Assembly: GCF_000190635.1 (NCBI RefSeq) | Contig: NC_015172.1 | Coordinates: forward strand, 2,790,001-2,854,000 | DNA length: 64,000 bases | Reading direction: 5' to 3' | Source of the DNA: Syntrophobotulus glycolicus DSM 8271 | GTDB taxonomy: Bacteria > Bacillota > Desulfitobacteriia > Desulfitobacteriales > Syntrophobotulaceae | Part shown: in pieces, positions 256-56,681 of the stretch | Position numbering within the stretch: the stretch's first letter is position 1 | Layout of the letters: the number at the start of each line of letters is the position of its first letter | Program-made: the position numbers and the translations under genes | Notes under the pieces: model-generated | Databases searched by the model: none | What the model was told of the DNA's origin: nothing | What the model saw: the letters and a program-made list of their open reading frames with translations, nothing else

Positions 256-1344
256 TTACTTTTTCGTTTCGTTGCCATACTGTTCAAAAACATGAACCAC
301 CAGGTCACTGGCTTTTACCTTGCCTACAGGAATGACTTTATTGTCTTCCAACTGTTTAATCCAAGGAATGAGATCATTTTCATCGATCGTTGTATCGTCC
401 GCATACCAGTGATTACCGGTTACAGGAATTCCAATGGCATCCGAGACCCACTGGGCCACCTGATCGGGATGTTCATCGGCATATTTCTGGCCCTTGCTGA
501 TGGCCCTGACAAAGCGTTTTACCGTATCAGGATTTTGATTAATAAAATCTTCGGTGAAATAATAGGCGGTCAGTCCGGCCAGCGATCCCAGCCCTGTTTC
601 AAAAGAATCGGCAATCCTTATCGCCCCGGCATCCTCCATGCCCTTATAGAATGGGGGATGGACAGGCGAGACATCGACCAGTCCCTGTTTCAGGGCTTGA
701 ATAGCCTGGATATCCGGCATCGTCACCCACTCGATTTTATCTTTTGGAATGCCGTATTTATCAAACAGAGTGTTGGTCAGGAAGTCCGTGCAAGTATTTG
801 TGGTGATGATGGAAAACTTAATCTTGCCCGGGAAATTTTTCAGGTCGGCGATACTTTTGATTTCCGGGTGTTTGGTCGGATTCACAAAAAACCACATGTG
901 GCGGAATTTCGGGTCAACACTCTCATCAGGTTCAATAATTCCCCTGCTGACCCCTTTCAGCTTGGCTCCCCCTGCCACCGCAACGGCCAGCTGATTCGGA
1001 TGGACCGAAGCGACATCATTGTTGCCGTTGATGATAGACGGAATCTGCTGGTTTGGCTGCAATTCACCGGTAAATACCAGTTTAATCCCTTCTTCTTTAA
1101 AATAGCCCAGCTTATCAGTCACCAGCCAGGGAGCAAGCGAACAATCCTTCCTGGTCCAGGTCTTGAGGACCGTTAACCCTTCATCATTTCCCGCTGCCGC
1201 CTGACCGCCGCCGACAGTAGCCGTGACTTCAGACGGAGTCTGTTCGATCGTCCTCCCTCTGTAGGCCCCTATGGCGATACCTGCAATAACTACCAAAGAA
1301 ACCGCTATAATTGCAATCGTTTTCCCTTTTTTTTCGAGCGACAT
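256..1344 (-). CDS. ABC transporter substrate-binding protein, NMT1/SsuA-TauA family
   Basis: This 362-residue exported solute-binding protein is likely for a sulfonate- or thioether-type organosulfur compound. I start it at ATG 1344 because GGGGG sits 8 nt upstream; the reading frame is open further but has no better ribosome site. An N-terminal membrane anchor (about residues 8-30) is followed by a linker rich in G and A. The mature domain has the type-II binding-protein pattern of the SsuA/TauA/NMT1 group (LAPWLVTDKLGYFKEEGI; DVASVHPNQLAVAVAGG). No lipobox cysteine is visible, so it may stay as a signal-anchored protein. It is downstream of two permeases and the ATPase on the same strand. 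The substrate is not determinable from sequence. Confidence 0.85.
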   Translation of the reverse strand: MSLEKKGKTIAIIAVSLVVIAGIAIGAYRGRTIEQTPSEVTATVGGGQAAAGNDEGLTVLKTWTRKDCSLAPWLVTDKLGYFKEEGIKLVFTGELQPNQQIPSIINGNNDVASVHPNQLAVAVAGGAKLKGVSRGIIEPDESVDPKFRHMWFFVNPTKHPEIKSIADLKNFPGKIKFSIITTNTCTDFLTNTLFDKYGIPKDKIEWVTMPDIQAIQALKQGLVDVSPVHPPFYKGMEDAGAIRIADSFETGLGSLAGLTAYYFTEDFINQNPDTVKRFVRAISKGQKYADEHPDQVAQWVSDAIGIPVTGNHWYADDTTIDENDLIPWIKQLEDNKVIPVGKVKASDLVVHVFEQYGNETKK

Positions 1345-1504
1345 CAATGTTACCCCCTTTAATGGTTTTATCTTTATCTTTTTCTTTCTCTGCAAATCGG
1401 TGCCCTGTTTACTCTATTCCCGATAGTTGATCTTAGTTTTCATCCCGTAATCCCCCTTCCCATTGATCATCATCAAAATCTTCAATCGGTTATTTTCGTT
1501 TCTT

Positions 1505-2293
1505 TTAAAAAGAAACAGAATCTTTCCACTTGACGATTTTTCTCTCCAGAAGTCTGAACAATCCGTTAATAACTAAGCCAAGCAAGGATATAACCACCGT
1601 AGCCGCATAAAGTACGGGGATCTGGTAATTGGTCTGGGCATTCCAGACCAGCCAGCCTAAGCCTCTGCTGGCCCCGATCATTTCAGCGGCGATCAGCATG
1701 AAGAAAGCTATTCCGGAGCTCATCTTAATTCCTGTGAAAATATAGGGAAGGGAAGATGGGAAAACTACTTTACGAAATATGGTCAGCCTCTTGGCACCCA
1801 TTGACTTGGAAGACTTGATCAGGAGCGGGTCAACCTCTCTAACCCCAGTAATGGTATTGAAAAGAATAGGCCAGAGGGATACCCAGAAAATCATCGTCAC
1901 CTTAGAAACCTCACCTATTCCCAGAATAAGAATAAATATGGGGAAGAGTGAGAAAGGATTAAACTGCCCCAAAAAGAACAGGACCGGCTTGACAATTCTT
2001 TCAAAGGTTTTGAACCCGCCTCCCAGCAAAACACCTAAAGGTATGCCGATGATAATGGCAAACAGGAAACCTAAAACCGTTCTTTCCAGACTGACCAGAA
2101 TATGCCCGAAAATCAATCCGTCTTCCGCCAAGCCGATAAGGGTGGTGATGATGGTCGAAGGCGCGGCCACAAAATTCTGATTGATCACATTTGTCCGGCA
2201 CCCTATTTCCCATAAAATCAGAAATGAGATCACTGAATAGCTTTTGGTCAATTGCGCCGGGATTCTGCCTAAGGATATTTTTTTATCTGCCAT
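1505..2293 (-). CDS. ABC transporter permease, SsuC/TauC family
   Basis: This 262-residue inner-membrane permease has about six hydrophobic segments. The ATPase-coupling EAA loop is visible as SMGAKRLTIFRKVVFPSSLP (about residues 165-184). The start is ATG 2293 with AAAGGAG six nt upstream; the longer frame adds eight residues without a ribosome site. It lies 50 nt downstream of a sister permease (2344-3126) to which it is clearly paralogous. Two different permeases with one ATPase suggest a heterodimeric pore. The family imports nitrate, sulfonates, taurine or thiamine precursors; the sulfur context of this window favours an organosulfur substrate (inference). Confidence 0.85.
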   Translation of the reverse strand: MADKKISLGRIPAQLTKSYSVISFLILWEIGCRTNVINQNFVAAPSTIITTLIGLAEDGLIFGHILVSLERTVLGFLFAIIIGIPLGVLLGGGFKTFERIVKPVLFFLGQFNPFSLFPIFILILGIGEVSKVTMIFWVSLWPILFNTITGVREVDPLLIKSSKSMGAKRLTIFRKVVFPSSLPYIFTGIKMSSGIAFFMLIAAEMIGASRGLGWLVWNAQTNYQIPVLYAATVVISLLGLVINGLFRLLERKIVKWKDSVSF

Positions 2294-2343
2294 TTTATCT
2301 CCTTTCATTCCAAACAATCATACAAAGCGTAATTTTGCCTAAT

Positions 2344-3126
2344 CTAAATATCCACATCTTCTTTCCAGGTGATGACGGATGATTCGATCAAGGCAATCAA
2401 ATAATTGATCGCATAGCCAAGCAAGGCAATGACCAGGACCCCTACAAAAAGGCGGGGAATCACATTATTATTGGAGGAGTTATAGATCAGCCACCCCAAG
2501 CCGGCGCTCGAACCAAGCATTTCTGCCGCAATAATCATCAGAAAAGAAGTCCTCGCCCCCATCTGCAGCCCCGTGAAAATGGAACGGGCCGCCCCGGGCA
2601 AGATTACCTTGGCAAATATGATGAGCTTCCCGGCGCCCATGGATCTTATACTTTTGATTAGGAGAGGATCGACATTTTTTACTCCGGATATGGTATTGAA
2701 AAAGACTGGCCAGATCGCGGACCAGAAAATGATGGCCAACTTGGCCGTCTCTCCGATTCCAAAGGCAAGAATAAAGATCGGGAAAAGAGAGAACGCATTA
2801 ATCTGGCCGAAAATATTCAATAAAGGATGAAGAAAAACCGTTACTTTGGGGAACCACCCACCAAGGATAAAGCCGAGCGGTACCGCTACCCCGATTGCCA
2901 TTAATAGGCCGACTAAGACTCTGAACAGGCTAGTCGTGGTATGAATGAACAGATCGCCGGTTATGGAAATCTTATAGGCCTCAACCAGGATATCAGAAGG
3001 GGGCGGGATAAACTGGGGATCGATCCAGCCCAGGCTGGGTCCTGCCTGCCAGACAGCAAAGAACAGGATAAAACCATAATAATCGATGAACTTTTCATGG
3101 ATTGCCCGTATCGTATTCTTAATCAT
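2344..3126 (-). CDS. ABC transporter permease, SsuC/TauC family
   Basis: This 260-residue permease is paralogous to its downstream neighbour. It has an N-terminal membrane segment (FILFFAVWQAGPSLGW), a central GFILGGW region and an EAA loop at SMGAGKLIIFAKVILPGAA. The start is ATG 3126 with AAGGGG upstream. It is separated from the ATPase gene (3270-4169) by a terminator-like attenuator at 3172-3232, so the permease and binding-protein part of the operon could be expressed at a different level from the ATPase. It acts in the cytoplasmic membrane with the ATPase; the substrate is unknown. Confidence 0.85.
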   Translation of the reverse strand: MIKNTIRAIHEKFIDYYGFILFFAVWQAGPSLGWIDPQFIPPPSDILVEAYKISITGDLFIHTTTSLFRVLVGLLMAIGVAVPLGFILGGWFPKVTVFLHPLLNIFGQINAFSLFPIFILAFGIGETAKLAIIFWSAIWPVFFNTISGVKNVDPLLIKSIRSMGAGKLIIFAKVILPGAARSIFTGLQMGARTSFLMIIAAEMLGSSAGLGWLIYNSSNNNVIPRLFVGVLVIALLGYAINYLIALIESSVITWKEDVDI

Positions 3127-3171
3127 AATTTTCCCCTTTTTAAGTGGAATGCCTGAAAATATGGAAAGCCT

Positions 3172-3232
3172 GAAAATAAAAGAGGTTAAATGCCCTTTTC
3201 AATAAAAAACATTTAACCTCCGGTTGATCCAG
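3172..3232 (-). terminator. Intercistronic attenuator: leader-type hairpin plus strong terminator
   Basis: On the minus strand a small hairpin CTGG-ATCAA-CCGG (3220-3232) is followed by a perfect 11-bp stem GAGGTTAAATG/CATTTAACCTC (3182-3220) and a CTTTTATTTT tail. The arrangement GACTGG...CCGGAGGTT matches the leader element repeated upstream of the nitrogenase-like genes. It lies between the ATPase and permease genes, so it should attenuate read-through into the permeases. Confidence 0.75.
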
Positions 3233-3269
3233 TCAGTTAAATTTAAGTTTATTTAATTGGTTCTGTTGA

Positions 3270-4169
3270 TTAAAGTACCGTACTTGAAGAAATTTCTTCA
3301 GCAAGATCAATGCTGTCTTGTTTTTCATTCTTATTAATCTCAGACTGACCATTGTTTAATGATTCCCAGACCTTATGCCTGATCCAGCTGAATTCCGTAG
3401 AAGCTTTTAGATCGCCCACCCGTCTGGGTCTTGGCAGTTTAATCTCGATGATCTCTTTGATTGTGCCCGGATTTACACTCATTACGGCGACTCTGTCGGC
3501 AAGGGCTACCGCCTCATCAATGCTATGGGTTACAAAGATAATGGTTTTGCTTGTCTCCTCCCAAATTCTGAGAAGCTCATCCTGTAACGCCTCCCTGGTC
3601 TGAGCGTCAACAGCGGCAAATGGTTCATCCATCAGCAACACTTCAGGATCATAAGCTAGGGCCCTGGCAATCGCCACCCTTTGTTTCATCCCCCCCGACA
3701 ATTCATAAGGGAATCTGTCTTCAAAGCCGCTGAGACCGACAAGATCGATAAACTTGGTGCTAATCTCTTTCCGCTGATTTTTCGGTACCTTCTTGATCTC
3801 AAGCCCCATCTCCACATTCTGCCTTACCGTTCTCCACGGCAGGAGAGCATAGCCCTGCAGGACAATGCCGCGATCCAAATCGGGTCCGGTAATCTTTTTA
3901 TTGTCAATAAAGATGTCCCCTGAGTTTTGCTTGGATAACCCCGCAATAATATCCAGAAGAGTTGATTTCCCGCAGCCGCTGGGACCTACTATCGTAATAA
4001 ATTCTCCTTTGTTGACTACAAGATTGACATCTTCTATTGCTAAAAACTGATTTTTCCCATCTTCCCTGGTGCTATTAATTTCGTAAACCTTGCTTAAGCT
4101 TTGTATGACAATCTTATTCTCCGGATTCCAGCCCTCTGAAACTCCGTTTTCCTGTAATTTGGTGCTCAT
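3270..4169 (-). CDS. ABC transporter ATP-binding protein, SsuB/TauB family
   Basis: This 299-residue cytoplasmic ATPase energises the import system. It has Walker A GPSGCGKST (about residues 64-72), signature LSGGMKQR (about 158), Walker B VLLMDEPF and the switch histidine in FVTHS. The start ATG 4169 follows AGGAGG by 10 nt; an in-frame TTG one codon upstream is possible. A C-terminal tail of about 45 residues extends beyond the core domain. It is the first gene of the operon and sits behind its own promoter, operator and leader (4190-4337). The SsuB/TauB/NrtD subfamily is inferred from the permease type and the sequence between Walker A and the signature. Confidence 0.9.
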   Translation of the reverse strand: MSTKLQENGVSEGWNPENKIVIQSLSKVYEINSTREDGKNQFLAIEDVNLVVNKGEFITIVGPSGCGKSTLLDIIAGLSKQNSGDIFIDNKKITGPDLDRGIVLQGYALLPWRTVRQNVEMGLEIKKVPKNQRKEISTKFIDLVGLSGFEDRFPYELSGGMKQRVAIARALAYDPEVLLMDEPFAAVDAQTREALQDELLRIWEETSKTIIFVTHSIDEAVALADRVAVMSVNPGTIKEIIEIKLPRPRRVGDLKASTEFSWIRHKVWESLNNGQSEINKNEKQDSIDLAEEISSSTVL

Positions 4170-4189
4170 CAAAATCCAACCTCCTTTTT

Positions 4190-7544: not shown

Positions 7545-9038
7545 TTATTCAACAATGTAACTGAACGGGTTCTTCGTATACCATTCCTTTTTGAACGGAA
7601 GGTTTACATTCTCTTTGAGGCTGCTCTGAAATGCGGTATTTCCCAGAGCTCTTACCGCCCGTCTTGCTACTTCAAAGACACCCCTATAGCCAAAATAATA
7701 CTGGGCTTGGGCAAAAATAGGAATGGATGGTATCCCCAGCTTGGCTGCCCACACATTACTCCCGCTGTGCCCCAGCAGCAAGTCCGGTTTAGACTTATTC
7801 AGCAAATTGACCAGTTCAAAGATCTGGGTCGTGGCAATATTCACGTTTAAATCCGGGTTGTCGGCAATCAATTGAGAAAAAATATCGTCGCCAAAATGGT
7901 CATAGTGGTGCCCTCTGATCCCTACCAGCTCACACCCCAGCTCTTTTAACAGCATTCCGGTAACGGCTACCCTGATCTCTCCCCCGCTGACAAATACCTT
8001 CTTGCCTTTTAACCTGCCGGCAAAAGGTAAAAGGCCTTTTTGCAAAGCCGCGGTTTCACTCTCAATGATTCTTTGGGCCTGGGCTTCTAAATGAAATTCC
8101 CTGGCAATATCCAGAAGCCATTCATTCGTATTTTTAATCCCAATAGGCATATTGCGGATAATATAGGGAATACCAAAGCGCTCCTGTAAATGCTTCAGAA
8201 AATAGTCGTCATGAGTGGGGCAAAGACTGACGTTTAAAGCGGCCTTCGCCAATTCCTTGAAGGCCTCGGGATGGACGAAATTGGGATAAAAATTTACCCG
8301 GAGATCCAATGAATTCAGAAGTCTCTGCAGCTCCAATTCATCTGTCCGGCCAATGGAAAACGTATTATAAATATTAACTGTCCTGCTTTTTTCGTACTGT
8401 TCTCTGAGAAGGTCCAGTTCATCCGCAACAACATTTGTCTCCTCCTCATCTTCCAGATCAAAGCTCCTGGCAATCCCATGGTAAACCGCGTCATATCCTG
8501 TCGCCGATATTTTCGTTTTAAATCCTTCACAATGCGTAAGCATGACCCTGGCGGCCACATTTTTTTGAACTCTTGCCACCAATTCGTCAACATCATCCCC
8601 GATAATTCCCGGAGCACAGGTTGTCAAGACAATAATGGCCGCAGGCCTATAAAAGGAGTCCACTTCCAAAATCGCTTCTTCTAATTTTTTTTCGCCGCCA
8701 TTAATAATGTCATTCTCGTCAAGATTGGTCGAAACCCAAAGCAGAGGCTTAGGCTTTATCCCCCGGGCAATCTGTCCGATCCTGAAATGATTGTCATTTT
8801 GCTGGTTGCCGCACCCTATGGGCCCGTGCATAATCAGCACCGCATCGGGAATTGTTGTCACCATGGAAAGCGCCAATCCTAATTGACAGTTGAACGTTTG
8901 GCAAAAGCTGCGATTTTTGTTGATCAGGCAGCCGCTTCCGGACTCTTTGATCAAATCACTAATCTTTCCCCCGTAAGCATTACTGGCATTTAACCTGTCT
9001 TCTCTCTTTGGCACAACCTTCTGATCAATAAGTCCCAT
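7545..9038 (-). CDS. Nitrogenase-like alpha subunit (NifD-like), D1
   Basis: This 497-residue protein pairs with K1 (9043-10377). Family landmarks are NRSFCQTFNC (Cys46/51), HGPIGC (Cys76) and TTCAPGIIGDD (Cys141), equivalent to the P-cluster ligands alpha-62/88/154. Cys273 in SLCPTHDDYF corresponds to cofactor ligand alpha-275. The CEGF motif (about 170) is followed by Ser and Tyr where NifD has Gln191 and His195. The region after LGIP has no histidine equivalent to His442. Hence it is a nitrogenase-like reductase, not a dinitrogenase. ATG 9038 is chosen for its seven-nt spacing to GGAGG (ATG 9041 is also possible); K1 ends at the adjacent codon, so the two are translationally coupled. It is closest in this window to D4 (shared CPTHDDYF). 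Confidence 0.85.
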   Translation of the reverse strand: MGLIDQKVVPKREDRLNASNAYGGKISDLIKESGSGCLINKNRSFCQTFNCQLGLALSMVTTIPDAVLIMHGPIGCGNQQNDNHFRIGQIARGIKPKPLLWVSTNLDENDIINGGEKKLEEAILEVDSFYRPAAIIVLTTCAPGIIGDDVDELVARVQKNVAARVMLTHCEGFKTKISATGYDAVYHGIARSFDLEDEEETNVVADELDLLREQYEKSRTVNIYNTFSIGRTDELELQRLLNSLDLRVNFYPNFVHPEAFKELAKAALNVSLCPTHDDYFLKHLQERFGIPYIIRNMPIGIKNTNEWLLDIAREFHLEAQAQRIIESETAALQKGLLPFAGRLKGKKVFVSGGEIRVAVTGMLLKELGCELVGIRGHHYDHFGDDIFSQLIADNPDLNVNIATTQIFELVNLLNKSKPDLLLGHSGSNVWAAKLGIPSIPIFAQAQYYFGYRGVFEVARRAVRALGNTAFQSSLKENVNLPFKKEWYTKNPFSYIVE

Positions 9039-9042
9039 CATC

Positions 9043-10377
9043 CTACCTCCTTGCCAGTAAAACATTGAATAAATCTTCGAACAGGTGCAGCCCGCCTTTG
9101 AAACCGGCATATCCTTTGTTCAGCACTGCTCTGTCCACAATGGGAAAACTGATGCTTAACGCTTTGGCTCCCAGATTACCGGCCAGTTCCAGCTCATGGG
9201 TACTTCCCAGAACAAATAAAGGGCTGAGTGCGGGTAAATACCTGTCATCACTGTAAAGGCTGCGGCCCTGGGCAAAATGACTTTGAATTTTCCCCGTATC
9301 CGTTTCGAAAACCAGTTCCGGGGCTTTGATGTTTGTAAAATCTTTAAAACTCAGGCGAAGAGTCTCTTTCTCCTCATCGGTCAAACTGTCCGTAATCACG
9401 GAAAGTTCCGGAAGCCAGCCGATCTCTTCGGCCAGAAAGCGGGTAACCGGATAACAGTAGTTGGCATTTCCGACGACGACAGCATAATTTTGCAAATCTG
9501 AATCTAAATAGGAATCTGCGACTCTCTCCATGTAGGAATAATAATTCTTCTTTTCCCGGGCAATCACCCTGTCCACCGATTGTTTATTCAAATTGAGCAA
9601 TTCCGTGATTTTGTCTAAAAATTCTACCGTTGCCTGCGCTCCGATCGGAATATCTTCAACAATATAAGGTGTCCCGTGCTTTTCCTGAAAACTCTTGGCT
9701 GCCTCCAGGCCATAAACTCTGGATAACACAATATTGGCCGAAGCCGAGCCTGCACGGTATAAATTTTCCAGTGATTCATCATAGCTGTAAAATGTATTGA
9801 CTTGAATTCCCAGCAAGTTCAATAATCTTTTGATTTCCTCCAAATCACCTCTGAAAAAAGGGTCAAGACCGGGAACAACACCCCAAATATTGACCAGGTT
9901 CTTCTTTTTGGACTTTGCCTTGGCTACATATTCGCTGAAAAGCGTCTCCAGAACCAGATCGTATCCTTTATAGGAGTTCCCTTTAAATCCTCCGGTATGA
10001 ACATACAGAATAGGCTTGGCGGGATCTTTAAACTGACTGACCACGATTTTGGGATCATCACCAATGATTTCTGTCATACAGCCGGTAACGACGATATAAA
10101 TTTCTCCCTCAATCATTTCCAAAGTTGTTGTGATCTGCTCCTTCAGTCTTTCTTCCCCCCCAAAAATGATTTCCTTCTCAGAAACATTAGAACTGGGCAT
10201 GGAAAGTCCGCCGCAGAAACCTGACCCATAAAGACCGGCCGCCTGTTGCGTACTAAAAAGATTGCCGCCGCAGCCGCTGGCAGCATGAATGATCGGAACG
10301 GCGCCCGGCAAGGAGGTTATGGTCTGTAAAGCTCCGCCCAGAGTACAACTGAACCTGGGCCTTTCAATATATGGCAT
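9043..10377 (-). CDS. Nitrogenase-like beta subunit (NifK-like), K1
   Basis: This 444-residue protein is the first gene of the operon K1-D1-(7003-7458). P-cluster-type cysteines are Cys11 (RFSCTLGGA), Cys36 (HAASGCGG) and Cys100 (VTGCMTEIIGDD), with an additional GFCGG cysteine at about 55. The IIFGGEERL and GGFKGNSY motifs are typical of the NifK/VnfK/AnfK-like superfamily. It lacks the long N-terminal arm of true NifK. It presumably forms an alpha2-beta2 complex with D1, fed by the NifH-like protein at 51767-52645. It is closely similar to K4 (28111-29451), sharing IERPR, HAASGC and PSSNV-EKE. It sits behind a promoter, operator and leader at 10413-10530. Confidence 0.85.
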   Translation of the reverse strand: MPYIERPRFSCTLGGALQTITSLPGAVPIIHAASGCGGNLFSTQQAAGLYGSGFCGGLSMPSSNVSEKEIIFGGEERLKEQITTTLEMIEGEIYIVVTGCMTEIIGDDPKIVVSQFKDPAKPILYVHTGGFKGNSYKGYDLVLETLFSEYVAKAKSKKKNLVNIWGVVPGLDPFFRGDLEEIKRLLNLLGIQVNTFYSYDESLENLYRAGSASANIVLSRVYGLEAAKSFQEKHGTPYIVEDIPIGAQATVEFLDKITELLNLNKQSVDRVIAREKKNYYSYMERVADSYLDSDLQNYAVVVGNANYCYPVTRFLAEEIGWLPELSVITDSLTDEEKETLRLSFKDFTNIKAPELVFETDTGKIQSHFAQGRSLYSDDRYLPALSPLFVLGSTHELELAGNLGAKALSISFPIVDRAVLNKGYAGFKGGLHLFEDLFNVLLARR

Positions 10378-11436: not shown

Positions 11437-12918
11437 TCAGCCGGCAAACTCTTCATCCTCAAGGAACGTGAAAGAGTTCTGTTCAAACCACCAATTACTA
11501 TAAGGCAGAGTGATTCTCTCCGAAAGATTTCTAGCCAGACTGTTATTGGCCAGAGTATCGATGATCCTGTATCCAAATTCAACCGTCCCTTCATAGCCCA
11601 AGGCCGTATACACATCGGCGACCATGAGTGAGGGAATCCCCAGTTTGGTTGACCAGACACTGAGCCCGGGATGCCTGGAAATATAAATATCCGGTTTCAG
11701 CTTTTTCAGGAGGTTCAACATTTCAAAGTTTTGCTGATCGGCAATACTTATGGAGATATCATCTCTCCTTGAGGCTAGCTCCAGGGTAGCCTCAGGTATG
11801 CTGCCATGGTCATAATGCTGGTCAAAATGCCAGGCCGCAGCCCAGAGAATTTCTATTCCCAATTCCTGCAAAACCCTGACGTAGCTGTGGGAGAAGCTTG
11901 GGCCCATACCGATCACAGCTTTTTTCCCCTTTAGTTTTTTTCTTATTTCCTCCAGCTCCGGCTTAATGCGTTCTTTTTCCTCTGCGATATAGGCCTCGAT
12001 TTCCTTTTCTTTACCGACAATTTTGCCAAGTTCCCGCAACCAGCTGTCCATTCCCGCTATGCCGTGAGGCTGCAAAGCCTTGACAAAAGGTACGCCATAA
12101 TGCTGTTCGAGCCCATTTCCCAAATACCCGCCCAAAGTGCCGCAAACACTGATCGTGGCCGCGGCCTCCGACAGTCTGGATAACTCTTCAATGGTTTTGT
12201 CCGCCAGCACAAATTGAGGAACCAGTCCAAACCGGGTAAAAATTTTGGTGATTGCCGCAAATCCGCCCAAATTGCTGCGGAAAGTAATTAAATTTACAAG
12301 CTCGGGCCGTTTCTTTTCGGGCGGCTTAACAATCCGGGTCAGAACGGCGTGATAAGCGGCATCAAACCCCGAAGCCCATACTTTGGAGCGAAAGCCCTCA
12401 CAAAGGACCGGAATAACAGGAATTGCCAGCTCCTCTTCCAATTCGGCCAGAATACTTTTGACATCATCGCCGATAATCCCGGAAGCACAGGAGGTGGTGA
12501 CAAATATGGCCTTGGGGCTAAATCTCCTGTAAGCTTCCCTTACTCCCTGCCTCAATTCTTCGGCTCCCCCAAAAACAGTAGAGCTTTCAGTCATATTTGT
12601 ATTTAAAACCCTAATATTGGTCAGCTTGAGCCCGTTGATTGTCTGGGACATTTGGGTCTGAACATTTGTTCCGATAATTTCAGCTGAACAACCCACTGGT
12701 CCATGATTAACCACAGCGGCATCTTTAATGGAAGCCAGCTGTCCCTGAGCGCAGCCCGAGCTGCAATTACTGGTTTGGCTAAAGCATCTCTCTTTGTTTT
12801 TCAAACTGCCGCAGCCCACCTGTTCAACAAGATCTTTGATCGATCCCCTGTAACCTGTGATGGCTCCCAGCCTGTTTTCCCTGGTCGGAGCCTCTTCATT
12901 TTGGATATTGATCGTCAT
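11437..12918 (-). CDS. Nitrogenase-like alpha subunit (NifD-like), D2
   Basis: This 493-residue protein is the partner of K2 (12945-14261). Cysteines are Cys45 and Cys52/56 (ERCFSQTSNCSSGC), Cys77 (HGPVGC), Cys144 (TTSCASGIIGDD) and Cys259 (ISVCGTLGGYLGNGL), the last at the alpha-275 cofactor-ligand position. Gln191 is replaced by Trp and His195 by Phe. The region equivalent to His442 reads LMVADVYTALGYEG, without histidine. It starts at ATG 12918 with GGAGGG six nt upstream. It is the last gene of a four-gene operon (D3, K3, K2, D2). It is very similar to D5 (35798-37255), with TRENRLGxITGY and CxGTLGxYLGNGL in common, so these two form one subfamily. The substrate is unknown; a Mar-like reductase or an assembly scaffold are both possible. 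Confidence 0.85.
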   Translation of the reverse strand: MTINIQNEEAPTRENRLGAITGYRGSIKDLVEQVGCGSLKNKERCFSQTSNCSSGCAQGQLASIKDAAVVNHGPVGCSAEIIGTNVQTQMSQTINGLKLTNIRVLNTNMTESSTVFGGAEELRQGVREAYRRFSPKAIFVTTSCASGIIGDDVKSILAELEEELAIPVIPVLCEGFRSKVWASGFDAAYHAVLTRIVKPPEKKRPELVNLITFRSNLGGFAAITKIFTRFGLVPQFVLADKTIEELSRLSEAAATISVCGTLGGYLGNGLEQHYGVPFVKALQPHGIAGMDSWLRELGKIVGKEKEIEAYIAEEKERIKPELEEIRKKLKGKKAVIGMGPSFSHSYVRVLQELGIEILWAAAWHFDQHYDHGSIPEATLELASRRDDISISIADQQNFEMLNLLKKLKPDIYISRHPGLSVWSTKLGIPSLMVADVYTALGYEGTVEFGYRIIDTLANNSLARNLSERITLPYSNWWFEQNSFTFLEDEEFAG

Positions 12919-12944
12919 TTTCAGCCCTCCCTCATGCCCCAATC

Positions 12945-14261
12945 TTATTGGAAGCTATTTAAAATTACGGAATAAATGTCCTCTGTCAGCCGCAGGGCTC
13001 CTTCATAGCCCACATAAGCCCGGCTTAACACCATTCTATCGCTGATCGGCGTAGAAACGGAAAGCTGGTAACCGTTTAATTCCCTGGCAACAACCCTGTC
13101 CCAGGCACTGCCCAGAATCAAGGGTCTGCCTCTGAATTTAATTTTCTTCAATTCTTCTCTGACCTCTCCGCCGTCATTGGTAAACGTCACTTCCGCCTTG
13201 ATCCCGTCCACAAAATGTTCAAACTCTTTTTGGATTCCGGCCCTGTGTTCTTCAGGGGCATTGTCGGTGATAAACTGTTTATTGGGCAATAAGCCCAGGT
13301 CATTGACCAAAAACCTGGCAATCCCCAGGGAATAGAAGCTGTCTGTAACCGTGACAAAATGTTTGGGCAGCAATCTGCTTTCCAGAAAGGCATCGGCGGA
13401 ACGCTCAATATAATAATAATATTTATCTTCCTGCTGTTTAATGACATCCTCCGCCTTCTGGGCGGGAATTCCCGTGGCCTCAGCCAGTTTCCTCAAAAAC
13501 TTGCCTGTTTCGGTCGGACCGATCGGCAATACCGGATAATGGATATAAGGGGTCCCGAATTTTTCTTTCAGCTGAATTACGTTTTTCAGGCCGACCCAGG
13601 GGGACAGCAAAAGATTGTATTGGGCCTTGGGGACCTTATTCAAGGCCTTCAGGCCGTTTCCCGGACCGAAAATCACATTGGGCTTCAATCCCAGCAGGCC
13701 CACCAGCCTGCTTAATTCCTCCAGGTTGCCCGCCCAAAAGGTATCCTGGAACGGCACAACCGACCAGATATTAATCAAGCCCTCTTCGATTTCCTCCGCA
13801 GGTTCAAGATATTGGCTGATCAAGGCCTCAAGCACCAATTCATGCCCGAAGAGGTTGCTGCCCTTAAACCCTCCCGTTTCCGCGAAGATTACCGGATAGC
13901 CCTGATCTCTGAACTCGCCGACGACTTCGCCCACATCATCCCCGACAATATCCGATGTGCAGCCTGTCAACACAACATAAAGATCGGCATCCATGATTTT
14001 AAAGGAATTGCTTAAAACCTCCCTTAAGCGGTCCGTGCCGCCGAAAATCACTTCTTTTTCTGTCACGTTCGTGCAAGGTATGGAATGCCCGCCGCTATGT
14101 CCCGAACCCTGGCAGCCGTTTTGCAGACCAAGTGTTGTCCAGAGCTTGGCCCCGCAGCCCGGCCCCGCATGGAGCACCGGTACTGCTTTCTCTACTGCCA
14201 GTACGGACTGATACCCTCCCAAAGCACAAACATGTCTCAATTGTTCAACATAACTTCCCAT
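12945..14261 (-). CDS. Nitrogenase-like beta subunit (NifK-like), K2
   Basis: This 438-residue partner of D2 has P-cluster-type cysteines Cys12 (HVCALGGYQ), Cys36 (HAGPGCGAK) and Cys101 (VLTGCTSDIVGDD). The motifs PCTNVTEKEVIFGG and AETGGFKGSNL are typical of the superfamily. The start ATG 14261 is preceded by AGGAGG. It is placed after K3 and before D2, so the order in this pair is K then D, the reverse of the sister pair D5-K5. The shared segments with K5 (PCTN-EKEVIFGG, VLTGCTS, LLVSPWVGL) identify a duplication. The spacing to K3 is 69 nt with no internal leader. Confidence 0.85.
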   Translation of the reverse strand: MGSYVEQLRHVCALGGYQSVLAVEKAVPVLHAGPGCGAKLWTTLGLQNGCQGSGHSGGHSIPCTNVTEKEVIFGGTDRLREVLSNSFKIMDADLYVVLTGCTSDIVGDDVGEVVGEFRDQGYPVIFAETGGFKGSNLFGHELVLEALISQYLEPAEEIEEGLINIWSVVPFQDTFWAGNLEELSRLVGLLGLKPNVIFGPGNGLKALNKVPKAQYNLLLSPWVGLKNVIQLKEKFGTPYIHYPVLPIGPTETGKFLRKLAEATGIPAQKAEDVIKQQEDKYYYYIERSADAFLESRLLPKHFVTVTDSFYSLGIARFLVNDLGLLPNKQFITDNAPEEHRAGIQKEFEHFVDGIKAEVTFTNDGGEVREELKKIKFRGRPLILGSAWDRVVARELNGYQLSVSTPISDRMVLSRAYVGYEGALRLTEDIYSVILNSFQ

Positions 14262-14330: not shown

Positions 14331-15665
14331 TCATAACGGCCCTCCGTATTTCACCATCAGATCTTCCATCAGGTTGAGCCCTCCCCGGTATCCGGTGTAG
14401 CTCCGGTAGACAATAAGCCTGTCATAGGAAGGAAATCCTACACTGAGGAAAATCGCCCCGCCGAGCTCGCTTTCCGAAATATACTTTTCCAGGGAGCTTG
14501 CCAGCACAAGCTGAACGGTGTATTCACGGAGAAGCAGCCTGATTTTGTGGGAATCGACCTCAAATATCACTTTTGGTTTGATCACTGATTCCAGCCTGTC
14601 CGTGAGGTCCTTGACAATCTGTTCTCTCTGCTCTTCAGGCGGGTCGTCCGTTATGATGACGATTTCCGGATTAAAGCCAAGCTCATTGGTCGCATAGTTA
14701 CCGATCCCAATAGCAGTGGAGCTGTCGGCAACCAGAGCATAGTAAGCGTGGGGCAGGGCAATTACGATAATATTGCCGATATATTCGGTAAACCGGTAAG
14801 TGATGCGCTCTTCTTCATTGACCACTTTAAGCACAACATCGGCGGGAAGATGAAACTTGTTCCCCACTGTCCTCAGGAATTCGCTGGATTGTTTGGGCCC
14901 GACAGGGGCTGAAGGGAATACCACATAAGGAGTCCCGAACTTCTGCTTGAGTTTTTCAGCCGGACTAATCCCCCATACCGAAAATACAAGATTCAGCTCC
15001 GCTTCAGGAATCTTTTCCAGCGCTTCCAATCCGTTAATTTCGGTAAAGATGATATTGGCCTTGATTCCTATCTTTTCCAGCAAAGTTTTTATATTCTGCA
15101 GGTCCCCTTTCCAAAACAAATGCTGGGTGGGGACAATTCCGAATATATTGACCAGTTTTTCCTGTTTCGGCTTTTCTTCCAGCAATTGATCAATGACCGC
15201 CTCAAAGTAAAGCTCATATCCTCTGAAAGAATTGCCGGTAAAACCGGCTGAATTGACATGAATGATTTTAACGTCATTTTTAAATTCGGCGACTACGGCA
15301 TTGACGTCGTCCCCGATCAGGGCCGGCACACAAGCCGTAATGACCGTGTACAGATCTCCCGGCATTAGGCTGATGGTAGATTTTATCAGTTTTCTGAGTT
15401 TATCTTCCCCGCCGAATATCACATGCTCTTCAACAAGAGTGGAGCAAGGCGTACTTGCTCCACCGACAGGACCGGGGGAATTCAACCCTCCGGCAAAGCT
15501 TTGTCCGGCATTTTGGGCAAACCCGCAGCCTCCGCCGGAATGCAGGATCGGTATGCTGCCGAAAGTGGCCAGGGCCGCCGAATAGGCCCCGCCTAAAGCG
15601 CAGGAATATCTGGGCGCTTCTATGCTGTCACCGTAGTGCTTGATTTGATTTTCTGTTAGAGCCAT
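14331..15665 (-). CDS. Nitrogenase-like beta subunit (NifK-like), K3
   Basis: This 444-residue partner of D3 (15672-17171) has a start codon 7 nt from the D3 stop; GGAGG within the end of D3 serves as ribosome site. Cysteines are Cys22 (RYSCALGGAY), Cys47 (HSGGGCGF) and Cys112 (TACVPALIGDD). The last motif lacks the usual acidic residue of E-I-I/V-GDD, and the insert QNAGQSFAGGLNSPGPVGG near 51-69 is specific to this copy. With D3 it forms the most divergent of the three subfamilies in the window. It likely forms an alpha2-beta2 enzyme with D3. Confidence 0.85.
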   Translation of the reverse strand: MALTENQIKHYGDSIEAPRYSCALGGAYSAALATFGSIPILHSGGGCGFAQNAGQSFAGGLNSPGPVGGASTPCSTLVEEHVIFGGEDKLRKLIKSTISLMPGDLYTVITACVPALIGDDVNAVVAEFKNDVKIIHVNSAGFTGNSFRGYELYFEAVIDQLLEEKPKQEKLVNIFGIVPTQHLFWKGDLQNIKTLLEKIGIKANIIFTEINGLEALEKIPEAELNLVFSVWGISPAEKLKQKFGTPYVVFPSAPVGPKQSSEFLRTVGNKFHLPADVVLKVVNEEERITYRFTEYIGNIIVIALPHAYYALVADSSTAIGIGNYATNELGFNPEIVIITDDPPEEQREQIVKDLTDRLESVIKPKVIFEVDSHKIRLLLREYTVQLVLASSLEKYISESELGGAIFLSVGFPSYDRLIVYRSYTGYRGGLNLMEDLMVKYGGPL

Positions 15666-15671
15666 CGACGC

Positions 15672-17171
15672 CTATACCTCCTTGGTGAAATAAAGGGGAT
15701 CCGGTTGATTGTACCACCATTCATTGTAGACATCAGGGGTCTTCTCCAGCATGGTCTGCTGAAATGAACGGTTTCTGGTGGACTGAAGCAGGAAATTACC
15801 GCTGGCAATCGCTCCCTTGTAACCGGCCTGGGCACTCCATTCCCGGGCATCGCCCCTGGCCGAATGAATCCTGGTCGCCCCCTTTTCCCGTTTATAGGCA
15901 TTCCCCTGGAAAGGGCAGGTCAGGGCAATGTCCGGATCGTACCTTCTTGTATGATGGGCAACCTCCGAAGCCTGGAAGGTATTGACCAGGATATCAAAAT
16001 CTCCCACCTCTTCGATCAGCTTATCGGTTTCATCCACGACGAGGTTATCAAAATCGAGACAGATGGCTGCCGATGTTTTGACGCCAATCTCATTGAAGAA
16101 GGGCACCTGGGTAAGCATACGTCCCTGTCCCAGTGAACCCAGAACATCAATTTTCTTGCCGTCCTTCTCCAGCTTCTCAAATTCGTTTCTGATGATTTCC
16201 AATTTTGGCAGCCACGTGTCATGCTCTTCGGCAATGAGTTTTTTCACTTCTTTCTCCTTGCCGGTATAATACGCTATATTTTTAAGCCACTCATCCGTAT
16301 GCTCGACACCGATCGGTGAAGGATAGAGAAAATAAAGCACACCGTATTCCTGTTCCAAACCTCTGGAAAGATAGTCCGTAAAAGAGGAGCAGATCGGTGC
16401 CGTCACCGCTGCTTCCGAAAGGATCTCGAACTGTTCGACCGTCGCAAATTCAGGGATAAAATTTGGCCTGAGTCCAAGCTTGCCCAGCAGCCGGGTTATC
16501 TCCATCCGGTCCTGCCAAGTATAGGAAAGCATACTGGCCACATTCACAAGATCCTTTTGTTTTTTGGCCGGCTTTTTGACCAGATATTTCAACACCCCAT
16601 GCCAGAAGGCATCATAGCCCGTCTGGACAAGCTTTGATTTAATCCCTTCGCAATGGATCGGAACAATTTTGGCCTTGACTTCCGGTTGGACCTCACTGAC
16701 AATGCCCTCAATATCCTCGCCGATAATCCCGGATGTGCAGGAAGCCAAAACAAAGATCGCTTGCGGATCATACCTTTCCTGAGCATCTCTGACAGCCTGC
16801 TTGAGCTTATCTCCCGCTCCATAGATGGCATCTCTTTCCTGCAAATTGGTGGTAAGCCAATGGAAATCGTAATTCTCAGGCCTGCCTAATCCGACCGGCA
16901 CTTTCCGGAAAATTTCCCTGTAGCCGAGCCCCACAACCGAGCATCCGACAGGGCCATGCACAATCATCACCGAATCACGGATGGTCATGATCCGCTGGGT
17001 CAGGAAAAAGTTCAAAAGGCACCCTGATGATTGTTGGAAAGAACGTTCCTTGTTTTGCAGTCCTCCCTCTCTCATTTGCTTTGTCAGTTCACTGGCCTTG
17101 CCGAAAAATGAGTTTATCCCATTGCCTCGGTCTTCCCTGGTCGGACAGGTATTGGCTTTCAGATTAATCAT
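15672..17171 (-). CDS. Nitrogenase-like alpha subunit (NifD-like), D3; keeps both cofactor ligands
   Basis: This 499-residue protein is the first gene of the operon D3-K3-K2-D2. Cysteines are Cys51 (QQSSGC), Cys77 (HGPVGC), Cys145 (LASCTSGIIGED) and Cys261 (APICSSFTDYL, alpha-275 equivalent). It is the only D subunit in the window with a histidine at the alpha-442 position: His436 in ATRIHSARGDA aligns with the REMHS motif of NifD. Gln191 and His195 are Val and Tyr, so dinitrogen reduction is still unlikely. The start ATG 17171 has GGGGGAGG upstream. This pair is the best candidate for a catalytic Mar-like reductase holding a FeS cofactor in a nitrogenase-like manner (inference). Confidence 0.85.
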   Translation of the reverse strand: MINLKANTCPTREDRGNGINSFFGKASELTKQMREGGLQNKERSFQQSSGCLLNFFLTQRIMTIRDSVMIVHGPVGCSVVGLGYREIFRKVPVGLGRPENYDFHWLTTNLQERDAIYGAGDKLKQAVRDAQERYDPQAIFVLASCTSGIIGEDIEGIVSEVQPEVKAKIVPIHCEGIKSKLVQTGYDAFWHGVLKYLVKKPAKKQKDLVNVASMLSYTWQDRMEITRLLGKLGLRPNFIPEFATVEQFEILSEAAVTAPICSSFTDYLSRGLEQEYGVLYFLYPSPIGVEHTDEWLKNIAYYTGKEKEVKKLIAEEHDTWLPKLEIIRNEFEKLEKDGKKIDVLGSLGQGRMLTQVPFFNEIGVKTSAAICLDFDNLVVDETDKLIEEVGDFDILVNTFQASEVAHHTRRYDPDIALTCPFQGNAYKREKGATRIHSARGDAREWSAQAGYKGAIASGNFLLQSTRNRSFQQTMLEKTPDVYNEWWYNQPDPLYFTKEV

Positions 17172-29451: not shown

Positions 29452-30966
29452 CTATTCCACCCCCGCGGTTTTGATATATTTGAATGGATCATCGTTATAC
29501 CATTGATCGGAATACGGCAGTGAGGTATATTGACTGAGCTTCCGGTTGAGAATAGGGTTTTTCAATTGTCTGAATAACCTGCGGGCTATCTCATATACGC
29601 CCAGGTACCCGATATAGCTTAACCCGGAGTTATAAATCACATGTGTTGCCACTCCAAGCCTGGATGCCGTTCCGTTCCCATGCCAATGACCCAGGAAAAC
29701 ATCCGGTTTCAACTTTCGCAGTAAATTGGCTTCTTCAAAGGGCTGGACATTGGCGATATTGAACACAAAGTCTTTGGGAGAAGAAGCCGCCAGCTTCTCA
29801 TATTCCCCAATGGCAAATTCGTCATGATGATAAGACCTTATCCCGACGATTTCAAACCCAAGCTCCTGCAGCAGTCTGGCTGTGGCCAGAGCCCTGAATT
29901 CACCCGCTCCCACAAAAACTTTTTTTCCCTGAAAAAGAGGCAGGAATTCTTGCAGCCCGGCCTCCAGTTCAGCTGTTTCCGCCTTGATCAGTTGATCAGC
30001 CTGCTCTTCCAGGCCAAAGAAACCGGCCACATCTTTAAGCCATAAATTCGTATTTTCAATGCCGATCGGCATATGATTCAGCAGATAAGGAATACCGTAC
30101 TGTTCTTTAAGGTGTTTGATAAAATAGTCGTCATGGGTCGGGCAAGTACTGACAGAAAGAGCGGCCTGCGTGACTTTGTACATTTCTTCCGGCCGGGCAA
30201 AAATCGGGAAAATGTTCACTTCCAGACCAAGAGAGCCCAGCAATCTGCTCAGCTCCAGTTCATCCACTCTGCCCATTGAAGAAACATTCATCAGGTTGAC
30301 CGTCCGGCTGCGTACAACCTTTTCTTTTAATTCTGCAAACTCGTCAATGATTAACCGGTTTTCCTCGCCGGGCTCTTCCAGCAATTTTCGGCCAAGCCCG
30401 TGGTAAACCGCATCATAGGCGGTGGCCCATATTTTTGTCTTAAATCCTTCACAATGAACGGGAACAAGGATGGCGTTAACTGTGGGCTGAACCTTTTGGA
30501 TCACCCCGTCAATATCATCCCCGATAATTCCCGGTACACACCCGGAAACAATCGTAATTGTCGTGGGCCTGTAGGTCTTCTCCGCTTCAATGATCGCTTT
30601 CTCCAGTTTTTCCTCCCCGCCGCCGATCACGTCCGATTCATTCAGAGCGGTGGAAAGCCAAATGGCGTCTTTGACTTTACCCCAGCGGATATTGCCTCCC
30701 GAGCGGGCATTGGCATTTTGGGAATGGGCGCATGATCCGCAGCCGATGGCCCCATGCAAAATGGTCACATTATCCGGCAAGCTGTTAATCATCGCCAGAC
30801 CGGGCAGCAAAAGACATATCGAGCCTTGGGAAAACCCTCTTTCCCCATCGTTTAAGCAGCAGCTTGCGCCTTTTTTAGCAAGTCCGCAAACTGTTCCGGC
30901 ATAAGTGATACAGGCCTTCAGCCGGTCTTCTCTTTTCGGTGGTTCTTTTTGGTCAAAATAGCTCAA
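29452..30966 (-). CDS. Nitrogenase-like alpha subunit (NifD-like), D4, in a methyltransferase operon
   Basis: This 504-residue protein starts at TTG 30966, eight nt after AGGAGG; the upstream ATG frame would add 21 residues that do not align with D1. Cysteines are Cys51 (SQGSIC), Cys76 (HGAIGC), Cys143 (VSGCVPGIIGDD) and Cys275 (STCPTHDDYF, cofactor-ligand position). Gln191 and His195 are replaced by Trp and Tyr. After LGVATH there is a histidine, but two residues earlier than the NifD His442 would be. It is preceded by a corrinoid protein and a zinc methyltransferase on the same strand, an association that points to methyl-sulfur chemistry. It is the sister of D1. Confidence 0.85.
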   Translation of the reverse strand: MSYFDQKEPPKREDRLKACITYAGTVCGLAKKGASCCLNDGERGFSQGSICLLLPGLAMINSLPDNVTILHGAIGCGSCAHSQNANARSGGNIRWGKVKDAIWLSTALNESDVIGGGEEKLEKAIIEAEKTYRPTTITIVSGCVPGIIGDDIDGVIQKVQPTVNAILVPVHCEGFKTKIWATAYDAVYHGLGRKLLEEPGEENRLIIDEFAELKEKVVRSRTVNLMNVSSMGRVDELELSRLLGSLGLEVNIFPIFARPEEMYKVTQAALSVSTCPTHDDYFIKHLKEQYGIPYLLNHMPIGIENTNLWLKDVAGFFGLEEQADQLIKAETAELEAGLQEFLPLFQGKKVFVGAGEFRALATARLLQELGFEIVGIRSYHHDEFAIGEYEKLAASSPKDFVFNIANVQPFEEANLLRKLKPDVFLGHWHGNGTASRLGVATHVIYNSGLSYIGYLGVYEIARRLFRQLKNPILNRKLSQYTSLPYSDQWYNDDPFKYIKTAGVE

Positions 30967-31024
30967 ACAACTAACCTCCTCTTTCTCACTTGTTCGATTA
31001 TCTGCTTTGCCGATGATGGGCTTG

Positions 31025-31062
31025 GACAAAGCGAAAACTTAGTCTCCAGTTTTTCCGGTCAA
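31025..31062 (-). ncRNA. Internal leader-type element before D4
   Basis: The minus-strand sequence is GTTGACCGG-AAAAA-CTGGAGACTAAG. The hairpin CCGG/CTGG (31046-31058) is followed by GAC-T-AAG/CTT-T-GTC (31025-31044), but no U-run follows, so it may process or regulate rather than terminate. It sits between the corrinoid gene and D4 and is preceded by an AT-rich remnant of the shared box (31060-31085). Confidence 0.6.
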
Positions 31063-31793: not shown

Positions 31794-31819
31794 CGCTATT
31801 TCCCCTTTATTAAAATAAA

Positions 31820-35797: not shown

Positions 35798-37255
35798 TCA
35801 CTCCTTTAAAAATGTTTGATTGTCCTGCTTATACCACCAATCCGTATAAGGCAGCTTGACTCTGGCGGCCAGATTTTTTTCAAAGCTCCTGTTTTTTATG
35901 GTATCCAGAACGGAATAAGCAAAATTCAAGGTACCTTGATAACCGAAAATCATATATTCATCGGCAACATAAAGGGCCGGAACCCCCTGTTTAATTGCCC
36001 AGACTGTTGTCCCGGGATGACGGGAAAAATAAATATCCGGCCGATAGGTATTCAAGATGTTCAAAACTTCGTAATTCTGCTGGTCGGCAACACTGATTCT
36101 GAAATTGTCCGGAGAATTCTCCCGCAGGTACTCCAGAGACGGAGGAGCCGCTTCATTATCATATTTTTTGTCATAATGCCAGGCTGCTGCCCAGACAACC
36201 TCCATATCCAATTCCTGCAAAACCCTGCTGACTTCAAAGGTATAGCCCGGACCCATGCCAATAACCGCCCGCAGGCCTTTTAATTCCCGTTTCGCTTCCT
36301 CAATTTTCGGGATGTAAAGTTCCCGCTGTTCGGCAAGATAAGCTTCCACCTTATCTTCTTTCTGAATCGTTTTCCCGATTTGCCTGAGCCATGTTTCAAA
36401 GCCGGTGACCCCCATGGGATTGATGGTCCTCACATAAGGAACACCATACCTTTCTTGGAGTCCGTTCCCTAAATAAGTACCCAGAGTTCCGCAAACGCAA
36501 ACAGTTGCCAGGGACTCGGAAAGTCTGGACAGTTCCTCAACGGTAGAATTCTGATATAAAAACAAAGGTTCAACATCAAACCTGGCAAATAAATCGATAA
36601 TTTCCAAACGGGCACTTTCATAAAAGTTTTTAAAATTGATCACATTTCTTTTTTGTTGGGGCGGCTTGACTATGCCGGTTAGCACAGCATGGTCGGAGAT
36701 ATCAAAGCCGGAAGCCCAGATCCTCGATTTAAAGCCTTCACAATGGACTGCGGCAATAGGAACGGGAATCTCTTCTTTCAGCTCTTCCACCACATTGTCC
36801 ACATCTTCACCAATAATACCGGTCACACAGGATGTCCCGATAAAGATTGCTTTGGGATGATAGCGGCGATAGGTTTCCAGTACAATTTCTTTTAGGGTTC
36901 CGGTTGCTCCGAAAACGGTGTCCTGTTCATTCATATCCGTCCCGATGAAAACCGTACTGTTCGTGACCCCTCTCTTCGCTGCCAGCTGGGCATTTTGTAC
37001 CGTCACCCCGGCTGCTGTCGCCGTACAGCCGGAAGGGGCGTGGTTGATGATCGCGATGTCCCTGATCCCTGAAAGCTGAGCCAGGGCGCAGCCGGATAGA
37101 CAGGTACTGGACTGGCTGAAGCATCTTTCTTTATCCCGCAAGGTTCCGCACCTTGACTGGTGCACTAAATCCCGGAGGTCGCCATGATAACCTGTAATGG
37201 AACCCAAACGATTTTCTCTGGTCCCAACAGAACTCTCTTTAAAATTGAACGCCAT
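35798..37255 (-). CDS. Nitrogenase-like alpha subunit (NifD-like), D5
   Basis: This 485-residue protein starts at ATG 37255 behind AGGAGGGG. Cysteines are Cys45 and Cys52/56 (ERCFSQSSTCLSGC), Cys77 (HAPSGC), Cys143 (TSCVTGIIGED) and Cys255 (VCVCGTLGTYLGNGL, cofactor-ligand position). Here the otherwise universal HGP before the second cysteine is HAP. Gln191 and His195 positions are Trp and Phe; no His442 equivalent (LYVADEYMIFGYQG). It is the sister of D2. It follows a glycerol dehydrogenase-like gene by 42 nt, so these are co-transcribed from the leader at 38432-38479. Confidence 0.85.
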   Translation of the reverse strand: MAFNFKESSVGTRENRLGSITGYHGDLRDLVHQSRCGTLRDKERCFSQSSTCLSGCALAQLSGIRDIAIINHAPSGCTATAAGVTVQNAQLAAKRGVTNSTVFIGTDMNEQDTVFGATGTLKEIVLETYRRYHPKAIFIGTSCVTGIIGEDVDNVVEELKEEIPVPIAAVHCEGFKSRIWASGFDISDHAVLTGIVKPPQQKRNVINFKNFYESARLEIIDLFARFDVEPLFLYQNSTVEELSRLSESLATVCVCGTLGTYLGNGLQERYGVPYVRTINPMGVTGFETWLRQIGKTIQKEDKVEAYLAEQRELYIPKIEEAKRELKGLRAVIGMGPGYTFEVSRVLQELDMEVVWAAAWHYDKKYDNEAAPPSLEYLRENSPDNFRISVADQQNYEVLNILNTYRPDIYFSRHPGTTVWAIKQGVPALYVADEYMIFGYQGTLNFAYSVLDTIKNRSFEKNLAARVKLPYTDWWYKQDNQTFLKE

Positions 37256-37297
37256 CTTTTTCCCCTCCTGTAAGTCCATCCGTATCCTCAGGCAAAT

Positions 37298-55790: not shown

Positions 55791-56681
55791 TTAACCATGA
55801 GAGAAGGACTGCAGGGGCTCGGGATAAAGGTTTTGAGCAAAATCCTTCTCCGCACCGGGAATCCCGCACGCATCGGCCCGGCACTGGCGACAATGTCTGA
55901 ATACCCCTAAATACCTTTCGGCAGCTTCTCTCTCCACATTCAATTCTTCACAATTGGGCACCCTGAAGTCGCTCATTTCATTTTGGGGGATAAGCGGGAT
56001 AATATTGATCGTTGACGCCCCGGCCGCTGATGTCACCCTGGCCACTTCCCCGACATGGCCGTTGTTGATCTCCGGGATCAGCACAGTGTTTATTTTTACA
56101 ACGATACCTCGTTCACTGATTTTTTTGATCCCTGCCAGTTGAGCTTCCAACAGCCACAAGGCCGCCTCCTTGCCATTGATCAACTGGCCATTGTAAAAGA
56201 TATAGGAGCAGATGTTCTTTAAAATCTCCGGATCTACAGCATTAACGGTAACGGTAACCGTCTTTACTCCCGCTTTGACAATTCTGTTCACATTTTCCCT
56301 TAATAAGAGACCGTTCGTACTGAGGCACTTGATCAAGTCGGGATACTTTTCGTGGACCAACTGAAATGTATCCAGAGCATGAGGAGTCGCCAAGGTATCA
56401 CCGGGCCCTGCAATACCGACCACTGTAATTTCCGGACAAAGCTCCAATGCTTTATCGACAACCTCCAGGGCTTTCTCCGGAGTTAAAATAGAACCTGCAA
56501 CTCCAGGCCTGTTTTCAAACTTATTTAAACTGCGCTTACAGAATTTGCACTGAATATTGCACCTGGGACTTACCGGCAAGTGGATCCGCCCATATTTATG
56601 ATGGGCTTCACCATTAAAGCAAGGATGCTTCTTGACTAAATGTTGATAACTCTGTTTTTCCGCCTTATTGTCTCTTTCCAA
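55791..56681 (-). CDS. nifB: NifB-like radical SAM cofactor maturase
   Basis: This 296-residue protein starts at TTG 56681 with GGGAGAGG upstream. It has the NifB N-terminal HPCF (Cys21), the radical SAM motif CNIQCKFCKR (Cys41, 45, 48), AGPGDTLATP, GVKTVTVTVNAVD, and the C-terminal cluster ligands HCRQCRADACG. NifB fuses two 4Fe-4S clusters and inserts a carbide and sulfur to make the 8Fe core. It lacks the C-terminal NifX-like domain, which is supplied by separate proteins (5871-6272, 51305-51646). It presumably supplies the cofactor to all five D/K pairs. The operon leader at 56705-56768 matches that of the reductase genes. Confidence 0.9.
   Translation of the reverse strand: MERDNKAEKQSYQHLVKKHPCFNGEAHHKYGRIHLPVSPRCNIQCKFCKRSLNKFENRPGVAGSILTPEKALEVVDKALELCPEITVVGIAGPGDTLATPHALDTFQLVHEKYPDLIKCLSTNGLLLRENVNRIVKAGVKTVTVTVNAVDPEILKNICSYIFYNGQLINGKEAALWLLEAQLAGIKKISERGIVVKINTVLIPEINNGHVGEVARVTSAAGASTINIIPLIPQNEMSDFRVPNCEELNVEREAAERYLGVFRHCRQCRADACGIPGAEKDFAQNLYPEPLQSFSHG

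Follow-up and report, generated by a model that had tools for sequence, protein, structure and literature searches.

The closest solved relative of the alpha subunit D3 considered here is methylthio-alkane reductase (MAR). In the MAR structure (PDB 9FMG) an [Fe8S9C] cofactor is bound by Cys270 and His429, the histidine lying on loop I, a loop other than that of NifD His442 (loop II), and the authors of the structure named Arg428-His429 a likely MAR hallmark (PMC12552129). NifE uses Cys250 plus Gln419 (PMC13031127), and IsrD, of the isethionate reductase IsrBHDK of R. capsulatus, has a single P-cluster cysteine and lacks both cofactor ligands (PMC11423573). Nitrogenase and MAR have been argued to have acquired their strong histidine ligands independently, on different loops, and to share an ancestor that held the cluster differently (PMC12552129, PMC13031127). 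For Syntrophobotulus glycolicus DSM 8271, whose chromosome measures 3,406,739 bp (PMC3156405), nine nitrogenase-like pairs and two four-gene runs were described in 2012 (PMC3464626); Dos Santos et al. reported that this group keeps Cys275 and is without His442 (PMC3464626).

Nitrogenase-like pairs of the genome and the window

We found 24 PF00148 genes in the genome: those of true NifDK and NifEN, an Anf-like pair and the nine nitrogenase-like (Nfl) pairs, of which five lie inside the 64-kb window (the whole stretch of DNA analysed here); since the pairs were already counted in 2012 (PMC3464626), their number is not new. The alpha subunit D3 (15672..17171, minus strand) is a MAR-like (Nfl) PF00148 protein of 499 aa with an intact reading frame. 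Its beta subunit K3 (14331..15665, minus strand) begins 6 bp past the D3 stop, and adjoins D3 in other D3 loci too; a second beta subunit, K2 (12945..14261, minus strand), completes with D2 the minus-strand run D3-K3-K2-D2, which should be one of the 2012 runs, Sgly_2775 to Sgly_2778. The MarH- and MarB-like partners of D3K3 lie within the window and are adjacent to it in other D3 loci. They are the only Nfl-type H component of the genome (51767..52645, minus strand) and a NifB/MarB-like radical SAM protein (55791..56681, minus strand), the likely cofactor maker, which scores 288 bits against TIGR01290, under the cut-off of 344. The nine Nfl D/K pairs of the genome appear to share a single Nfl-type H and a single MarB-like protein; the only other NifB-like protein of the genome adjoins the nif operon (L102). 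Elsewhere, D3K3 has H and NifB-like genes as neighbours in L034/L092, L035, L094, L099 and L100, the H genes being 75-81% identical to that of the window, and cysK is often nearby; no D/K pair other than D3K3 is present in regions L034, L035, L094, L098, L099 and L100. In L096 (9993-16929), from another phylum, a D2K2-type pair (49-54% identical) comes after D3K3, as in the window. Beside D3 we also noted two surface-type proteins (17373-19331 and 19446-21176) with common C-terminal domains, in which the motif D..C...P..T..CL.M..CA.SGYGI is repeated.

A maximum-likelihood tree of Nfl alpha subunits, built with both loops left out, divided the proteins into an Arg-His (MAR) clade, a Gly-His clade and a D3 clade, the last joining the MAR clade as its sister (support 98/92). 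D1 (7545..9110, minus strand) and D4 (29452..31029, minus strand) fall in the Gly-His clade, each with a loop I histidine at position 448 (7767-7769 and 29686-29688, respectively). D2 (11437..12942, minus strand) and D5 (35798..37279, minus strand) fall in the MAR clade, and the Arg-His hallmark is present in both: D2 has Arg423-His424 (histidine codon 11671-11673), His424 being aligned directly to MarD His429 by HMMER, and D5 has loop I His421 (36017-36019). In fact, a loop I histidine occurs in 28/28 non-D3 Nfl alpha subunits examined from this and other genomes, MarD included (Arg-His in 16, Gly-His in 12), and in 0/15 D3-family proteins. The simpler history would be a loss of this histidine in the D3 line, the alternative being an early split of D3; by the AU test, placing D3 outside the remaining Nfl proteins is also compatible with the data (p 0.26; the nitrogenase outgroup branches are long).

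These results bear on the original prediction, in which D3 alone kept both cofactor ligands and the other four pairs held the cofactor either by one cysteine, like scaffold NifEN, or differently, as possible scaffolds or as enzymes with a distinct cofactor. Loop II of D1, D2 and D5 is indeed without a histidine, as had been stated. Nevertheless, the prediction is almost certainly wrong in its conclusion: D1, D2, D4 and D5 all carry, at the place of MarD His429, the loop I histidine that is a ligand in the MAR structure and that D3 is missing, and so they are not one-cysteine scaffolds, the structure contradicting that reading for the D2/D5 type; NifE itself, moreover, pairs its cysteine with a glutamine. 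Because the MAR histidine ligand is on loop I, alpha-442 is the wrong place to test in the MAR-like family. Most likely, judging from their sequences, these four proteins hold their cofactor as MAR does. The oddity of D3 is real and had been read the wrong way round; D3K3 is not the only cofactor-bearing pair. Loop II histidines are also seen outside the D3 family. D4 and its relatives L071, L073, L082 and L083 have, besides the loop I histidine, a conserved histidine opening loop II (ATH/TSH), which precedes the position of D3 His436 by one residue, and loop II of the organism's own NifE (L004), GVAFIDHNHDRKHP, has histidines about where A. vinelandii NifE reportedly uses Gln419 for the L-cluster.

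The D3 family and its cofactor site

D3 has orthologues in a Bacillota MAG (83% identical), in Geotalea toluenoxydans (70%), in deltaproteobacterial MAGs (63-65%) and in seven further genomes of the Geotalea order, together with a sister pair (L057/L058) at about 50%. The gene is rare, occurring in 2/398 genomes sampled in the phylum of Syntrophobotulus and 8/141 in the Geotalea order (Geobacterales). Among 15 D3-family proteins from several phyla 148/499 columns are invariant; residues shared by every family member but by no other Nfl protein include R60, E86, Q183, W190, D373, P420, H436 and R439. The D3 family is a previously undescribed, separate subfamily among the MAR-like nitrogenase relatives. 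In the draft of G. toluenoxydans K3 (L034, 7506-8830) is split by a frame break, probably a draft error; a near-identical locus in another genome (L092, G867) is unbroken.

By sequence and by fold, the closest solved structure to D3 is MarDK of Rhodospirillum rubrum (PDB 9FMG, 9D9U), with E-values of 1e-68 for the sequence comparison, 1e-88 for the family profile and 2e-32 for Foldseek, and 32% identity in the fold alignment. D3K3 and MAR have in common the fold, the P-cluster cysteines, the cofactor cysteine and MarH- and NifB-like partners. All six P-cluster cysteines are kept, Cys51, Cys77 and Cys145 in D3 (spanning 16737..17021, minus strand) and Cys22, Cys47 and Cys112 in K3. Cys261 of D3 (16389..16391, minus strand) corresponds to MarD Cys270 and NifD Cys275, in a column filled by cysteine in 46/46 aligned alpha subunits, and we strongly infer that it anchors the cofactor. 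Around the cluster, on the other hand, D3 departs from MarD: Trp195 and His375, both at the cluster, become Val182 and Asp373, and the hallmark Arg428-His429 becomes Cys419-Pro420 (15912..15917, minus strand), which, given the loop I histidine of the other four alpha subunits of the window, makes D3 the exception. Cys419 aligns with MarD Arg428, the neighbour of the ligand His429; it is present in 13/15 family members and replaced by Ala in the sister pair L057/L058, whereas Pro420 is found in 15/15. Also unlike MarD, D3 has His436, an extended loop II and arginines at MarD positions 74, 353 and 446. These arginines, R60, R351 and R439, are invariant across the D3 family. Arg60 (16992..16994, minus strand), at MarD Gln74, adjoins the NifD Val70 substrate site and is family-specific; Arg351 (16119..16121, minus strand) corresponds to NifD Arg359, in a column that holds Arg also in the Gly-His clade and mostly Tyr, His or Phe in MARs; Arg439 is at 15855..15857 (minus strand). 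A further arginine, Arg85 (16917..16919, minus strand), occupies the NifD Arg96 column in 13/15 members, with His in the sister pair.

D3 resembles NifDK in its cofactor cysteine, in its Arg96- and Arg359-type arginines and in having a loop II histidine near alpha-442; yet NifD Gln191, His195 and the homocitrate anchor Lys426 are replaced by Val182, Tyr186 and Gln422, and D3 scores 119 bits against the NifD model TIGR01282, below the cut-off of 653.6. A literature search on Gln440 and homocitrate returned nothing. The likeness to NifEN lies in possible L-cluster binding without a loop I histidine; unlike NifEN, D3K3 has all six P-cluster cysteines and in several loci is accompanied by no other D/K pair, and the NifE model TIGR01283 gives 121.5 bits against a cut-off of 505. 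Isethionate reductase IsrBHDK is likewise nitrogenase-like and shares with D3K3 a NifB-like partner and an Ssu-type importer, but D3, unlike IsrD, has three P-cluster cysteines and the cofactor Cys261. On ligand pattern and model cut-offs we rejected D3 as Isr, true NifD or NifE.

His436 (15864..15866, minus strand), in the stretch ATRIHSARGDA, is invariant in 15/15 D3-family proteins, including the sister pair about 50% identical, a conservation beyond chance, and beyond residue 191 it is the only conserved histidine of the family; if a conserved histidine of the domain binds the distal iron, it is therefore the sole candidate. The original prediction placed Cys261 and His436 at the alpha-275 and alpha-442 positions. 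Both residues are present in the intact frame and the first placement holds; the second is off, since a count from the conserved glycine ahead of the last strand gives +7 for NifD His442 and +5 for D3 His436. The histidine of D4, described as displaced, is out of register too (+4), though only one residue away from that of D3, so that a one-residue difference had decided between counting D3 in and leaving D4 out. Exact homology between His436 and His442 finds no support from MAFFT, the HMMER profile, hhalign or strand counting: in MAFFT the 442 column is taken by D3 Arg439, in HMMER His436 is matched to a MarD proline, and in hhalign the 442 region corresponds to D3 residues beyond 440. The loop behind His436 is longer than in NifD. 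In the AF2 model of D3, whose pLDDT falls below 50 at 420-425 and 436-444, the last strand ends at 433-435, immediately before His436; in a control model of D2 the strand runs from +3 to +5. His436 lies on the loop of NifD His442 (loop II), standing about two residues early.

A candidate reaction and its alternatives

An SsuABC-type importer (256..4172, minus strand) lies at the start of the window, with a binding protein (SBP, 256-1395), two permeases (1505-2317 and 2344-3126) and an ATPase (3270-4172). Its binding protein is a weak match in NCBIfam (61 bits, cut-off 163.5). Orthologues of this importer usually adjoin D3K3 in other genomes, the binding protein and ATPase being 56-68% identical to those of the window, and D3 and the SsuA gene often lie about 1 kb or less apart. 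Among Geobacterales, the SsuA orthologue is present in 8/8 genomes with a D3-family gene and in 5/133 without one (Fisher p 4e-10, uncorrected for kinship). Two of these five D3-less genomes hold apparently the same operon, one with K3 and one (G866, L119) without D3 and K3. The former (L118, G834:C29, 385-8831) reads H-cysK-SsuC-SsuC-SBP-K3-SsuB-SsuC, with D3 absent and K3 still open, and looks like a loss of the alpha subunit. Taken with the regions in which D3K3 is the sole D/K pair, the D3-less operons argue for an enzymatic role of D3K3 and against its serving another pair as scaffold. The arginines, like the importer, would fit an anionic substrate resembling a sulfonate. Between D4K4 and cysK the window also holds a corrinoid protein and a URO-D-type methyltransferase (31140-32875), and URO-D-type genes occur near D3K3 in L033 and L094; this suggests methyl transfer linked to this sulfur metabolism.

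We favour, at slightly less than an even chance, a reading in which D3K3 is an active MAR-type reductase, with an L-cluster anchored by Cys261 and His436 and an anionic organosulfur substrate. By homology, the H protein would pass electrons via the P-cluster to the [Fe8S9C] L-cluster, which, to judge from gene linkage and from MAR, would be made by the NifB/MarB-like protein. His436 would take over the binding of the distal iron from the lost histidine, the same cluster being anchored from the nitrogenase-side loop. R60, R351 and R439, which are Gln, Tyr and Leu in MarD, may bind the anionic substrate, for instance a sulfonate delivered by the importer; a carbon-sulfur bond would be split reductively, and the released sulfur could pass to CysK. 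The parts of this reading differ in strength. Anchoring by His436 is nearly an even call; of the classical holding once suggested for D3K3 the pair Cys261 and His436 remains the best guess, His436 being conserved in the family, though outside the alpha-442 column. Cleavage of a carbon-sulfur bond in an anionic organosulfur compound, suggested by neighbours and charge, is plausible but more tentative.

Both Cys419 and Arg439 compete with His436 for the ligand spot. Cys419, kept in 13/15 members and next to the position of His429, could itself be the second ligand, a two-cysteine hold in which His436 would be second-shell or a proton relay; the sister pair, with Ala at this position and His436 and the core residues retained, makes such an arrangement unlikely. 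Another possibility is that D3K3 carries a different or smaller cluster, its Arg-rich pocket holding some other cofactor or the substrate directly. In its favour, several MAR pocket residues (W195, H375, R428 and H429) are missing from D3 at once, but D3K3 retains the cofactor cysteine along with all six of the P-cluster, its genes are linked to NifB-like ones, and we consider this possibility quite improbable. Less probable still is a D3 without a second strong ligand, a NifE-like scaffold that holds the L-cluster loosely for its neighbour D2K2. The run D3-K3-K2-D2, the adjacency of D3K3 and D2K2 in L096 and the scaffold roles proposed for such runs by Dos Santos et al. 2012 (PMC3464626) all point that way; against them stand nine other D3K3 regions with no D2-like pair adjacent (some on short contigs), several regions in which H and NifB-like genes accompany D3K3 as the only D/K pair, and the missed NifE cut-off (121 of 505 bits).

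Overall, with His436 as the preferred ligand, the gene and its surroundings indicate that D3K3 is probably a sulfur-scavenging enzyme with a new mode of holding its cofactor. It is possible, if rather doubtful, that the family represents a further anchoring mode, for the carbide-containing iron-sulfur cofactor, with a histidine (or cysteine) at a site that serves this purpose in nitrogenase no more than in MAR, and that the enzyme uses nitrogenase-type clusters to cleave sulfonates or other organosulfur anions. The alpha-442 test is unfit for calling MAR-like proteins cofactor-free scaffolds. A living family that is without the MAR histidine and has another on the nitrogenase-side loop makes the question of ligand evolution testable in purified protein. 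If the proposed function is true, anaerobes would have, besides Isr, a second nitrogenase-like route to sulfur from the cargo of sulfonate-type importers.
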